From a virus, in IMG/VR virus record IMGVR_UViG_3300028400_000003, positions 20,086 to 84,085 of that record: 64,000 nt of DNA. One strand, given 5' to 3'. Positions 2,523-21,935 of this stretch are shown here, one piece after another. Both the position numbers and the translations under genes were made by a program. How positions within the stretch are numbered: the stretch's first letter is position 1; the number at the start of each line of letters is the position of its first letter. The notes under the pieces are model-generated. The model did not search any database. It saw only the letters and a program-made list of their open reading frames with translations, and was not told the origin of the DNA.

Positions 2523-2551
2523 TTGACAAAAATAGTAGGGTCATATATAAT
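2523..2551 (+). promoter_or_regulatory. promoter of the tRNA array
   Basis: Perfect TTGACA (2523-2528), 17-base spacer, perfect TATAAT (2546-2551). It lies immediately after the tmRNA terminator and about 42 bases before the first tRNA, so it probably drives the whole array. Confidence 0.85.
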
Positions 2552-2599: not shown

Positions 2600-2675
2600 A
2601 TAGGGGTGGCGCAATTGGTAGCGCACCGGCTTTGGGAGCCGGGGGTTGCGGGTTCAAGCCCCGCCCCCTATACCA
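2600..2675 (+). tRNA. tRNA-Pro (TGG)
   Basis: 76-base cloverleaf. The acceptor ATAGGGG pairs with CCCCTAT, the anticodon loop is TTTGGGA, and the T loop is TTCAAGC. CCA is encoded. Confidence 0.92.
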
Positions 2676-2678
2676 TAT

Positions 2679-2721
2679 GGGCGGCATGGATGCAAGCTGG
2701 GTTCAAGCCCCAGCCCGCCCA
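2679..2721 (+). pseudogene. tRNA remnant lacking D and anticodon arms
   Basis: GGGCGG (2679-2684) can pair with the CCGCCC before A2721, and an intact T arm CTGGG-TTCAAGC-CCCAG sits between. Only about ten bases separate the 5' acceptor strand from the T arm, so D and anticodon arms are absent. There is no CCA. It looks like an internally deleted tRNA inside the array. Confidence 0.5.
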
Positions 2722-2910
2722 AGAGCGCGGGAGTTGCACCATGATGCGCAGAGCAGCCGATGGAAGGTGCAACAGGTTGCCGCCGAAGGCGGGGTCGGCG
2801 GTGGAAACAATGGAGCGGGTTTGGGAAGATGCGGCCAGCTACGCTGACCAACGCATCGGCCCGAGCGTAGGGGAACCCGCAGGGGCTACGGTAGGTGGGG
2901 ACCGTAGCTG
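2722..2910 (+). ncRNA. structured inter-tRNA RNA A (pseudoknot)
   Basis: No gene is apparent between tRNA-Pro and tRNA-Ala, but the spacer is packed with perfect inverted repeats. These are: GTTGCACC 2733-2740 with GGTGCAAC 2766-2773; CCGCC-GAA-GGCGG 2780-2792; GCGGGTT 2815-2821 with AACCCGC 2874-2880. Inside the last, GATGCG 2828-2833/CGCATC 2852-2857 interleaves with CTACGCT 2839-2845/AGCGTAG 2864-2870, an H-type pseudoknot. The spacer ends in a hairpin GCTACGGT/ACCGTAGC with loop AGGTGGGG (2893-2900). It does not match any RNA family I know. It would be co-transcribed with the tRNAs. Confidence 0.5.
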
Positions 2911-2915
2911 TTTAT

Positions 2916-2991
2916 GGGCGCGTAGCTCCAACGGGAGAGCGGCCGGTTTGCACCCGGCAGGTTGCAGGTTCAAATCCTGTCGCGTCCACCA
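2916..2991 (+). tRNA. tRNA-Ala (TGC)
   Basis: 76 bases. The acceptor GGGCGCG/CGCGTCC contains the G3-U70 pair that marks alanine tRNAs. Anticodon loop TTTGCAC. CCA is encoded. Confidence 0.93.
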
Positions 2992-2994
2992 TGC

Positions 2995-3084
2995 GGTGGG
3001 GTGGCGGAGCCAGGTTTAACGCACCCGGTTGCTAGCCGGGCGGTCTGAAAAGGCCCGTAGGTTCAAATCCTACTCCCACCGCCA
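2995..3084 (+). tRNA. tRNA-Ser (GCT)
   Basis: 90 bases with a long variable arm. Anticodon stem CCCGG/CCGGG around TTGCTAG, discriminator G as usual for serine, CCA encoded. Only three bases separate it from tRNA-Ala. Confidence 0.92.
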
Positions 3085-3087
3085 GAT

Positions 3088-3165
3088 GCCAGCGTAGCCC
3101 AATCAGGCAGAGGCACCCGGCTTAGGACCGGGGTAGTGCAGGTTCAAGTCCTGCCGCTGGCACCA
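3088..3165 (+). tRNA. tRNA-Leu-type (TAG anticodon), short variable loop
   Basis: 78 bases. Acceptor GCCAGCG/CGCTGGC, anticodon stem CCCGG/CCGGG around CTTAGGA, so the anticodon is TAG (reads CUA). T arm GCAGG-TTCAAGT-CCTGC, CCA encoded. The variable region is only GTAGT, whereas bacterial leucine tRNAs normally carry a long variable arm. The anticodon is clear; charging with leucine is inferred. Confidence 0.85.
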
Positions 3166-3166
3166 T

Positions 3167-3241
3167 GCCCGGTTAGCTCAACGGTAGAGCGTTCGCCTTG
3201 TAAGCGAGGGGCTGGGGGTTCAAATCCCTCACCGGGCTCCA
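3167..3241 (+). tRNA. tRNA-Thr (TGT)
   Basis: 75 bases. Acceptor GCCCGGT/ACCGGGC, discriminator T, anticodon loop CTTGTAA, CCA encoded. One base after the previous tRNA. Confidence 0.92.
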
Positions 3242-3244
3242 GAG

Positions 3245-3452
3245 GGGCGTCTGCACGACGCATGCGGCCTGGCGCGGGCGGGGCGGGCCGTCGCGGGAGC
3301 CTGTTCGGAGCCGGAGGGCTGCACTAGATCATGGGAACAGGCAGGCTGCACCGGAGGTGGGGCCGGTGTGGAAGCGGAGCAGACCTAGTAGGCTTCATGC
3401 CTGCGGAGCGTAGGTGGGGTCTGCACATCATGATCGGCGGGGGTCATGATGA
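3245..3452 (+). ncRNA. structured inter-tRNA RNA B (pseudoknot)
   Basis: A second gene-free spacer with dense perfect pairing: GCGTC/GACGC 3247-3261; GCCTGTTC 3299-3306 with GAACAGGC 3335-3342; CACCGG 3349-3354/CCGGTG 3363-3368 around the loop AGGTGGGG; ATCATGA 3427-3433/TCATGAT 3444-3450. GAAGC 3371-3375/GCTTC 3392-3396 interleaves with GCAGACC 3379-3385/GGTCTGC 3418-3424, giving another H-type pseudoknot. AGGTGGGG recurs at 3412-3419. The same loop and the same knot topology as spacer A suggest a related RNA. Confidence 0.5.
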
Positions 3453-3457
3453 CTCGA

Positions 3458-3533
3458 TGGCCGGTAGTTCAAATGGCAGAACAACGGACTTTGGATCCGT
3501 GGGTTGCAGGTTCGAGTCCTGCCCGGCCAGCCA
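3458..3533 (+). tRNA. tRNA-Gln (TTG)
   Basis: 76 bases. Acceptor TGGCCGG/CCGGCCA, anticodon loop CTTTGGA, discriminator G, CCA encoded. Confidence 0.92.
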
Positions 3534-3536
3534 GAC

Positions 3537-3623
3537 GGAGGGGTCGCCAGTAGGTGCGGCAACCGGTCTTGAAAACCGGGGCGGGTAACACCGTTGCAGG
3601 TTCGAGTCCTGTCCCCTCCGCCA
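3537..3623 (+). tRNA. tRNA-Ser (TGA)
   Basis: 87 bases with a long variable arm. Acceptor GGAGGGG/CCCCTCC, anticodon loop CTTGAAA, discriminator G, CCA encoded. Confidence 0.92.
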
Positions 3624-3626
3624 TAT

Positions 3627-3701
3627 GGCCCTGTCGTCTAATGGACAGGACATCTGCCTACGGAGCAGAAGATCGGGGTTCGAGTCCCTGCGGGGCCGCC
3701 A
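3627..3701 (+). tRNA. tRNA-Arg (ACG)
   Basis: 75 bases. Acceptor GGCCCTG/CGGGGCC, anticodon stem TCTGC/GCAGA around CTACGGA, CCA encoded. Confidence 0.92.
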
Positions 3702-3721
3702 GAAAGAAAGGGGCGACCGGT

Positions 3722-3901
3722 GTGGAAAGACCTTATTGCCTTCTCGTTGATAACTTTGTGACCGCCTGTGGAAAGTACAGGTTTGCCATCGTTGACTTCC
3801 CCTACGTCGCAAGAACACTCGATGAGGTCACATGCGAAGAGTGCAAACGCTCCAAGGAATACCAGAAGTTGGTAGACATGGCCCCGTCGTCTAATGGATA
3901 G
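3722..3901 (+). CDS. small CxxC protein overlapping a tRNA gene
   Basis: A 59-residue protein read from GTG 3722 behind a GAAAGGGG purine stretch. Near the C-terminus it has VTCEECKRSKEY, a single CxxC typical of small phage zinc-binding proteins. Its last seven codons and stop lie inside the following tRNA-Arg gene (overlap 3880-3901). Function unknown. It is the only likely protein gene between the array's tRNAs. Confidence 0.55.
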   Translation: MERPYCLLVDNFVTACGKYRFAIVDFPYVARTLDEVTCEECKRSKEYQKLVDMAPSSNG

Positions 3902-3954
3902 GGCAGCGGGCTTCTAACCCGCCTGTGCAGGTTCGAGTCCTGCCGGGGTCACCA
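3880..3954 (+). tRNA. tRNA-Arg (TCT)
   Basis: 75 bases. Acceptor GGCCCCG/CGGGGTC, anticodon stem GCGGG/CCCGC around CTTCTAA, CCA encoded. Reads AGA/AGG arginine codons. Confidence 0.92.
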
Positions 3955-5612: not shown

Positions 5613-5689
5613 CCTCGACGCTGCGGCGTTGAGGTGCACCCCCGCCGAACCGTCACCGTAGGTGGCTTGCCGAAGGGCTAGGCGGGGGT
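5613..5689 (+). promoter_or_regulatory. multibranched RNA structure between genes
   Basis: Hairpin CCTCGACGC-TGCG-GCGTTGAGG (5613-5634) is followed by a nine-pair outer stem ACCCCCGCC (5638-5646)/GGCGGGGGT (5681-5689). The outer stem encloses GTCACC-GTA-GGTGGC (5652-5666) and a short GCC/GGC stem. It ends six bases before the -10 of the resolvase gene, so it is probably the 3' end of the upstream transcript. An elaborate terminator or a regulatory RNA are both possible. It matches no riboswitch I recognise. Confidence 0.4.
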
Positions 5690-5694
5690 TGCGT

Positions 5695-5700
5695 TATGAT
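5695..5700 (+). promoter_or_regulatory. -10 element of a leaderless resolvase gene
   Basis: TATGAT ends five bases before ATG 5706, and no ribosome site is present. No -35 is recognisable. Confidence 0.45.
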
Positions 5701-5705
5701 CAGGT

Positions 5706-6260
5706 ATGAAACCCTTACGCGATGGAAAGATTGTAGGCGTTGATCCAGGCACGGGTAAGGTTCACGTGGCTGTCCTGCGAGTATCGGATGGCCGGCTTTA
5801 CTATGAAACCAGTGGCTCCTACGGGGTAGGCGACCTTGAACCGGTCAAGGAGCTGCTAAGCACGGCCAAGAGGTTGGTTGTAGAGAAACCCGGCGGTACC
5901 CTGTACGGAAAGGTGCGCTACGATCACCTGGTAATGATCAGCGTCAACGCAGGCCGCGTGTTCCAAATGGGCATAGACCAGGGGCTCGAGTCCCGCCTGG
6001 TAAACGCGCATGGTCCTGGAGGCTGGCGGCCCGCATTGCTTAAGAGCGGAAAGGGCTACCGTCGAAAGGGGCAAGAGGTAGCGGAGCTTGAGGCCCTGCT
6101 GCCTTACCTGATCCGTGAGCTACCGCTTCGCAATGGTAGGTTGAAGGGGGTGGTGAGTGAGCACCAGCGGGACGCCTTGGGCATAGCCGTGGCGGGCGCG
6201 TTGGGGCTTAACCCGCTACCCCGTAGAGGCAAGCAGCGCCGTGGACCCATAGCTCAATAG
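5706..6260 (+). CDS. RuvC-like Holliday junction resolvase
   Basis: 184 residues with RNase H-fold resolvase motifs: GVDPGTG with Asp13 on the first strand, LVVEKP with Glu60, and EHQRDALGIA with His153/Asp156 near the C-terminus. These match the catalytic carboxylates of RuvC, which cuts four-way DNA junctions with Mg2+. In phages such enzymes resolve replication and recombination intermediates before packaging. The length is close to bacterial RuvC (about 170). The gene appears leaderless. Its last 18 bases lie inside the downstream tRNA gene. Confidence 0.8.
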   Translation: MKPLRDGKIVGVDPGTGKVHVAVLRVSDGRLYYETSGSYGVGDLEPVKELLSTAKRLVVEKPGGTLYGKVRYDHLVMISVNAGRVFQMGIDQGLESRLVNAHGPGGWRPALLKSGKGYRRKGQEVAELEALLPYLIRELPLRNGRLKGVVSEHQRDALGIAVAGALGLNPLPRRGKQRRGPIAQ

Positions 6261-20285: not shown

Positions 20286-21935
20286 GTGAGCAAGGGAAGA
20301 ATCTTGAAGGAGCAGGCTATCGGCTACGTCCTGCTAGAGCAGGAGGGCAACGGTAGCCCGGTGGCCAAAGTTACCCTAATCAAGGCGGGGCTTTCCCTGA
20401 ACAATGTGAATTACCCGCCTGACGTGCTGGCCGCAGCCGCTCACCTGTACAACGACAAGCCTTGCATGCTGGATCATAGCTGGTCACCAAGCGTGCGTGA
20501 CATTGCGGGTTGGTTCCGAAATGCCCGCTGGAACGCACAGGATCAGGCCATCGAGGCCGATCTGTACCTGCTCGACACGCAGGCGGGGCGGGTGCTGCTT
20601 GAGCTTGCGCGTGAGGAGCAGCGGCTTCGTGCTGAGGGTAACATTGGCGAAGGCAGCCGGTTGTTCGGGCTCAGTCACCAGGTCTTTGGCGACGTGGAGG
20701 TTGTAACGGACGAGGGCGGTAACGAGTACGTAAACGTCCGTGAGATCACTGAGGTTATGAGCGTTGACGCCGTGGCCTTCCCCGCCGCCAATGGCGAGGT
20801 TAAGGAGTTGCACGAAAGCGCCGATAACCCCGAAAAGACCTGCATGAGCGCCGAACAGTTTGGCCGAGTCCTAGAGGAAGCCATGAAGCGAGCTACCGAA
20901 GGTGGGGATCGGCTTGCCGAACGCGCCACCCGGTTCCGTGACCTGCCGCTTGCCGAACGCGCCCGCCCCTGGAACGGAGCGGCAGCCCGTCAGCGTCTCC
21001 GCAAATGGGCGAGTGAAGACGGCTCGGGTAACACGGATACGATTGACTGGCGCAAGTACCGTTGGGGCTTCTTCTGGTATGACCATACCGATCCCGAGAG
21101 GCTTGGCAGCTACAAACTGCCTTTTGCTGACGTGCTCGGGGGCACGATCCGCGCTATTCCACGGGGCATCTTCGCCGCTGCCGGGGTAGTGAGCGGGGCG
21201 AGGGGCGGCCCCGACATACCGGAAGAAGACATGGCGGGCGTCAAGCGCCACATTTCGGCCTACTACCGCAAGATGCGGGACGAGTGGGACGACCCCAACC
21301 TGATGCCGCCGTGGGAGCGCGAAGAGTCGAGGCCAACCGATGAAGAGGCTGCGGCCTTTATCGAGGCCTTTGGGCTCGATGCGTTCGTTGAAACCTTCGG
21401 CTACTCTCCCAGCACTAGCGGGGGTGAAGCAATCGAGGAGCAGCACGATGAGAGTAAGGAGGAAGAAGCCATGAGTGAAGCCAACAAGAATCCGGAAGCA
21501 AAGACACCTGAAACCGCGCCGATGCCTGACGAAAAAGGTATCCGCGAGCAGGTGGCCGAGGAGTTCGCCGAAAAGCTTCGGGGGCTCGTTGAGGAGAACA
21601 AGCAGCTTCAGGAAGAGGTCGAGGCCCTGAAGGAGCAGATCAAGGCCTTCGAGGAGGAGAAGGCGGCGGCCGAACGCGCGGCCAAGCTCGAAGAGATGTT
21701 CCTGGCGGCCGGGATCGAGGGGGCCGCTCGCGAGGTGCTTGAGGGCGTCGTGAGCGACCTTCCGCTTGAAAAGGCCGAAAAGGTCATTAAGCTGGCCGCT
21801 GGAACCGAGCCCAAGGAAGCTGACCCCGCGCCCAAGAAGCGGGTTCAGGAGGGCACGGAAGAGGCGAGCCCAACCGACCTTGGACGCAAATACGCTGAGC
21901 AGGTCTTCGGCCTCAAGGTCGAGGAAGCAAACTAA
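20286..21935 (+). CDS. prohead protease with C-terminal scaffold
   Basis: 549 residues from GTG 20286 (GGGGG nine bases upstream). Residues 1-180 resemble a prohead maturation protease, including MLDHSW and SRLFGLSHQVFG with candidate His/Ser residues. Residues ~210-350 hold an inserted domain (DWRKYRWGFFWYDHTD, GGPDIPEEDMAGVKRH) seen in other phage protease or capsid proteins. From ~390 an acidic coiled coil (LVEENKQLQEEVEALKEQ) looks like scaffold. The fusion resembles lambda C/Nu3, supported by an internal start at 21471. Confidence 0.8.
   Translation: MSKGRILKEQAIGYVLLEQEGNGSPVAKVTLIKAGLSLNNVNYPPDVLAAAAHLYNDKPCMLDHSWSPSVRDIAGWFRNARWNAQDQAIEADLYLLDTQAGRVLLELAREEQRLRAEGNIGEGSRLFGLSHQVFGDVEVVTDEGGNEYVNVREITEVMSVDAVAFPAANGEVKELHESADNPEKTCMSAEQFGRVLEEAMKRATEGGDRLAERATRFRDLPLAERARPWNGAAARQRLRKWASEDGSGNTDTIDWRKYRWGFFWYDHTDPERLGSYKLPFADVLGGTIRAIPRGIFAAAGVVSGARGGPDIPEEDMAGVKRHISAYYRKMRDEWDDPNLMPPWEREESRPTDEEAAAFIEAFGLDAFVETFGYSPSTSGGEAIEEQHDESKEEEAMSEANKNPEAKTPETAPMPDEKGIREQVAEEFAEKLRGLVEENKQLQEEVEALKEQIKAFEEEKAAAERAAKLEEMFLAAGIEGAAREVLEGVVSDLPLEKAEKVIKLAAGTEPKEADPAPKKRVQEGTEEASPTDLGRKYAEQVFGLKVEEAN
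21471..21935 (+). CDS. scaffold protein from internal in-frame start
   Basis: ATG 21471 lies in frame within the protease gene and is preceded by AAGGAGG eight bases upstream, a stronger site than the parent gene's. Initiation here would give a 154-residue acidic coiled-coil protein (MSEANKNPEAKTPE start) as free scaffold, like lambda Nu3. Confidence 0.65.
   Translation: MSEANKNPEAKTPETAPMPDEKGIREQVAEEFAEKLRGLVEENKQLQEEVEALKEQIKAFEEEKAAAERAAKLEEMFLAAGIEGAAREVLEGVVSDLPLEKAEKVIKLAAGTEPKEADPAPKKRVQEGTEEASPTDLGRKYAEQVFGLKVEEAN

Follow-up and report, generated by a model that had tools for sequence, protein, structure and literature searches.

Two long spacers in the tRNA array of an uncultured virus each contain two full copies of a single two-hairpin module (M1-M4 in total), and it is very probable that these four copies make up a genuine structured RNA family, which is undescribed and known from one virus. 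As read from the sequence, complete divergence of the stems together with retention of the shape and of an eight-base G-rich loop points to an undescribed functional RNA, and we put only a little short of even the possibility that the tRNA operon gives rise to a new family of stable RNAs that would present one loop repeatedly to a putative partner. The window (the whole stretch of DNA analysed, 64,000 nucleotides) belongs to a virus record of 84,085 bases and carries the tRNA array at 2600-3954, with tRNA ends called by ARAGORN; at these positions the junctions between tRNAs mostly measure just 1-3 nt. Spacer 1 is flanked by tRNA-Pro and tRNA-Ala and spacer 2 by tRNA-Thr and tRNA-Gln. Long spacers also separate tRNAs in other virus arrays (L013 7222-8901, L045 7663-12285), without this module.

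Each module consists, in this order, of GGA, an 8-bp helix A with a closing G-C pair and a loop of 25-50 nt (25, 50, 28 and 30 nt in M1-M4), whose 3' strand ends in C, a short linker (AGG in M1-M3, A or ACA in M4) and a helix B of 9-10 bp, which in all four copies is capped by an 8-nt loop [A/C]GG[C/T]GGGG. The copies, and a possible degenerate fifth one whose likeness was judged by eye, are as follows:

2730..2804, + strand: module M1; GGA; helix A 2733-2740/2766-2773; linker AGG; helix B 2777-2786/2795-2804; loop AGGCGGGG at 2787-2794
2812..2909, + strand: module M2; GGA; helix A 2815-2822/2873-2880; linker AGG; helix B 2884-2892/2901-2909; loop AGGTGGGG at 2893-2900
3296..3371, + strand: module M3; GGA; helix A 3299-3306/3335-3342; linker AGG; helix B 3346-3354/3363-3371; loop AGGTGGGG at 3355-3362
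3376..3451, + strand: module M4, the weaker copy; GGA; helix A 3379-3386/3417-3424; linker A/ACA; helix B 3426-3434/3443-3451; loop CGGCGGGG at 3435-3442
3247..3291, + strand: possible degenerate fifth module; 5-bp hairpin, 2-nt linker, 8-bp hairpin with a 12-nt loop ending in GGGCGGGG

Folded alone, M1 adopts the two-hairpin form; for M4 the MFE favours a shifted helix A, and the fold of 3247-3291 (z -0.5) is not significant by itself. The initial annotation had drawn attention to the octamer AGGTGGGG, which does lie at 2893, 3355 and 3412 and occurs once more in the window, at 20900. Both of the hairpins that it described around this sequence have 8-nt loops, on stems longer than it had claimed (9 bp each, 2884-2909 and 3346-3371); the third occurrence (3412) is not a hairpin loop and spans the end of the helix A loop of M4 and the start of helix A'. 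Overlooked were two extra hairpins of the same kind, those with loops AGGCGGGG and CGGCGGGG, and likewise the 8-bp helix A that accompanies every one of the four.

Stem sequences differ in nearly every pair between copies. Helix B nevertheless keeps its pairing in all 36 pair cells across the four copies, each of its nine pairs varying on both sides with zero mispairs, and helix A varies at seven of its eight positions, again with pairing intact. Since no homologue was found in the collections searched, this covariation is that of four paralogues partly chosen for folding; pairing was itself among the features by which the copies were identified, a caveat addressed by shuffling the loop set and helix A. 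REP hairpins have a tetranucleotide at their foot, and the copies studied here, repeated in intergenic space, have a GGAG below each first hairpin that may resemble it, as might be expected of duplicates in decay or of mobile REP-like palindromes that now have no function. Such elements share their stem sequence, however, whereas the stems of M1-M4 diverged almost wholly while remaining paired, and the 84-kb record holds no further copies of the module. We therefore consider this origin improbable, and a REP-like palindromic element was rejected as a candidate because a conserved stem sequence is absent.

Besides the pairing, the association of one loop with one kind of stem sets the spacers apart from their shuffled counterparts. 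All of their 8-nt-loop hairpins with a stem of at least 7 bp (n=4) carry [A/C]GG[C/T]GGGG loops, whereas none of 3,000 spacer shuffles held more than two 8-nt-loop hairpins with loops alike, and just one reached two. Hairpins with an NGGYGGGG loop and a stem of at least 7 bp number exactly four on both strands of the 64 kb, all within the two spacers, and none of the NGGYGGGG sites outside M1-M4 (36 sites in the window in total, both strands) sits on a stem of that length. One hairpin of this kind turned up in about 3.1 Mb from other loci. An 8-bp helix A at its fixed place after GGA appeared in shuffles with frequencies of 0 for M1, 0.00025 for M2, 0.001 for M3 and 0.002 for M4. A model built from M2-M4 recovers M1 at 23.6 bits (E 0.0013; best non-member E 0.36), and M1-M3 are clear relatives of one another. 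The model built from M1-M3 fails to recover M4, which scores 13.6 bits (E 1.1) among the noise; therefore, the membership of M4, based on its loop, GGA and helix A, is probable, not certain.

That the spacers fold better than shuffled sequence holds well for spacer 2 (z -3.7 for 3242-3457) and just slightly for spacer 1 (z -1.5 to -1.9, the latter for 2722-2910). Chance folding of G-rich spacer sequence has in its favour the G+C content of 64-69%, the finding that many shuffles fold at least as well as M1 by itself and the frequency in shuffles of pseudoknots of the size once proposed here; the fourfold co-occurrence of loop, stem, linker and GGA lies, on the other hand, far outside the shuffles, and makes this explanation very improbable. 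The initial annotation had argued against chance from the recurrence of both loop and topology. What stands of that argument is the hairpin-plus-loop set (four against a best shuffle of two in 3,000); the octamer alone is weak evidence, because some octamer was present three times in 134 of 2,000 shuffled spacer pairs (6.7%). The interleaved helices, read at the time as an H-type pseudoknot in each spacer, are at chance level, such knots being contained in 17-48% of shuffles (6+7 bp in 17% and 25%, 5+7 bp in 39% and 48%). Nor are the proposed knots equivalent to each other, as they occupy different parts of their modules. We therefore rejected the pseudoknot as the shared element; the copies share the two-hairpin module instead, and the earlier idea that the tRNA array harbours a recurring family of structured RNAs is supported, and strengthened, by four copies with compensatory changes, without its shared pseudoknot topology.

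Protein coding offers no better account of these regions. A ribosome-binding-like GGGAG about 7 nt before ATGATG at 2741 might suggest a small protein encoded by the frame that crosses spacer 1, but this frame scores -0.18 per codon, against +0.07 to +0.21 in likely genes, and continues through the tRNA-Ala gene, so that such a product is most improbable. The spacers are, as previously noted, without good genes: their frames traverse tRNAs and have negative codon scores, and coding was rejected because no coding signal was detected.

No Rfam family matches the spacers, GOLLD, ROOL and RNase P, which had been brought up as candidates, included; at gathering and permissive thresholds the array yields gathering-level scores for tRNA and tmRNA only, with no notable match in the spacers. 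When 2.9 million viral contigs were scanned with exact patterns, the matches listed were all sites without stem or context, and the same was true of every match in bacterial genome contigs. Model R1 found no homologue over 0.99 Mb of loci; its one match over 85 virus records (24.9 bits) and its three matches over 297 genomes of one phylum (near 30 bits) have no tRNAs nearby and were judged to be chance. Queries with the terminase, exonuclease and capsid protein retrieved no near relatives of the virus from collections that may lack its close kin.

The position of the spacers suggests how they could become RNAs of their own. Upstream of the array lies a promoter that could drive it as a whole:

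2523..2551, + strand: sigma-70-type promoter TTGACA-17-TATAAT, 12 of 12 consensus positions matched, 48 nt upstream of tRNA-Pro

Both spacers would be transcribed together with the tRNAs from this one strong promoter, and tRNA maturation, with RNase P acting at the 5' end of the downstream tRNA and 3' processing of the upstream one, would free two stable RNAs. Each spacer has a tRNA on either side, and its last hairpin stops 6 nt short of the next tRNA; therefore, standard processing would be expected to excise the following RNAs, whose ends are predicted from the ARAGORN tRNA ends:

2676..2915, + strand: predicted excised spacer RNA 1, 240 nt, tRNA-Pro to tRNA-Ala
3242..3457, + strand: predicted excised spacer RNA 2, 216 nt, tRNA-Thr to tRNA-Gln, z -3.7

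Judged by position and promoter, processing of the spacer RNAs together with the tRNAs is plausible, and we lean slightly towards the existence of an excised spacer RNA. Alternatively, the structured spacers could act solely in cis, keeping neighbouring tRNAs folded apart, guiding or timing RNase cleavage or protecting the precursor, with no function after processing. Their place in the array, with the last hairpin so close to a tRNA, and the single promoter predicted for the array agree with such a role, but most tRNA junctions here need no such element, and a general spacer duty leaves an invariant G-rich loop on unrelated stems unexplained; we regard a cis role as unlikely, though well ahead of chance or of duplicated elements.

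For RNAs acting after excision, the second hairpin of each module would display the fixed loop [A/C]GGYGGGG to one common partner. The loop is most likely the binding site of this partner, because the stems diverged freely while shape and loop stayed, and the presence of several loop sites per RNA suggests a multivalent binder or decoy, whose candidate targets would be a host or viral protein, or a C-rich RNA. Decoy action is a tentative suggestion, and equally doubtful is the fuller proposal of an undescribed viral ncRNA family of tandem two-hairpin modules, derived from tRNA precursors, that would capture a host or viral factor via identical G-rich loops. CCCCRCC sites in the virus, antisense to the loop, show no clear pattern. 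In decoy RNAs of the CsrB/RsmZ type several hairpins carry the same loop motif in one RNA, that motif being GGA-based, whereas the loop described here, [A/C]GGYGGGG, is without GGA; GGA is not enriched in the spacers either (counts of 8 and 8 against shuffle means of 6.2 and 7.0), and a CsrA/RsmA decoy was rejected on both grounds. Phage tRNA operons are generally interpreted as devices for codon supply or tRNA repair. The near-invariant loop of a module present in four copies is a concrete, testable candidate binding site, and internal spacers of tRNA operons would become a place to look for regulatory RNAs.

The nearest known kind is that of stable RNAs within phage tRNA clusters, namely rnaC and rnaD of T4, also named species 1 and 2; they measure 139 and 119 nt, and the phage record, which states no function, places them in the tRNA gene cluster. 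Like them, the spacer modules sit in a tRNA operon outside the tRNA genes; unlike them, rnaC and rnaD are single copies whose folds lack the paired-hairpin module and the GGYGGGG loop, and model R1 gave no match on the T4 locus (L115), so there is no detectable homology. GOLLD and ROOL also occur in association with phages and tRNA genes; they are large structured RNAs, each a single folded molecule much larger than these modules. Their Rfam models, as already said, do not match the spacers (for the structures of both RNAs, see PMC12286853). In E. coli, 3'ETS-leuZ, a 53-nt fragment of a tRNA transcript derived from an external spacer, works as a sponge of the sRNAs RyhB and RybB, with no repeated modules described, and as of a 2021 review no stable internal spacer RNA had been reported (PMC8166272). 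The likeness would lie in the release, from a tRNA precursor, of a piece that has its own role, the excision of the spacer RNAs being in our case inferred.

Other RNA-related features lie around the array. Adjoining tRNA-Pro is an element not called as a tRNA by ARAGORN or the Rfam tRNA model:

2679..2721, + strand: tRNA-like minihelix; folds into an acceptor-like 7-bp stem (one mismatch) and a T arm, without D or anticodon arm

A viral tmRNA gene (2164-2482; predicted tag GNDTFLAAA) has its own promoter-like site and terminator; compared with 38 bacterial genomes, its longest and best match is to a Solidesulfovibrio genome (77% across the first 98 nt), a weak hint as to the host. A DUF3800-IX RNA (Rfam RF02968, 48.9 bits) at 5636-5696 lies immediately upstream of an ORF (5706-6260) that by eye resembles RuvC-like nucleases, with no Pfam match. 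Also adjoining the tRNA array is an RNA ligase gene (PF09414; 4434-5093), with relatives at 40-49% identity in many viral contigs, some of them next to tRNA arrays.
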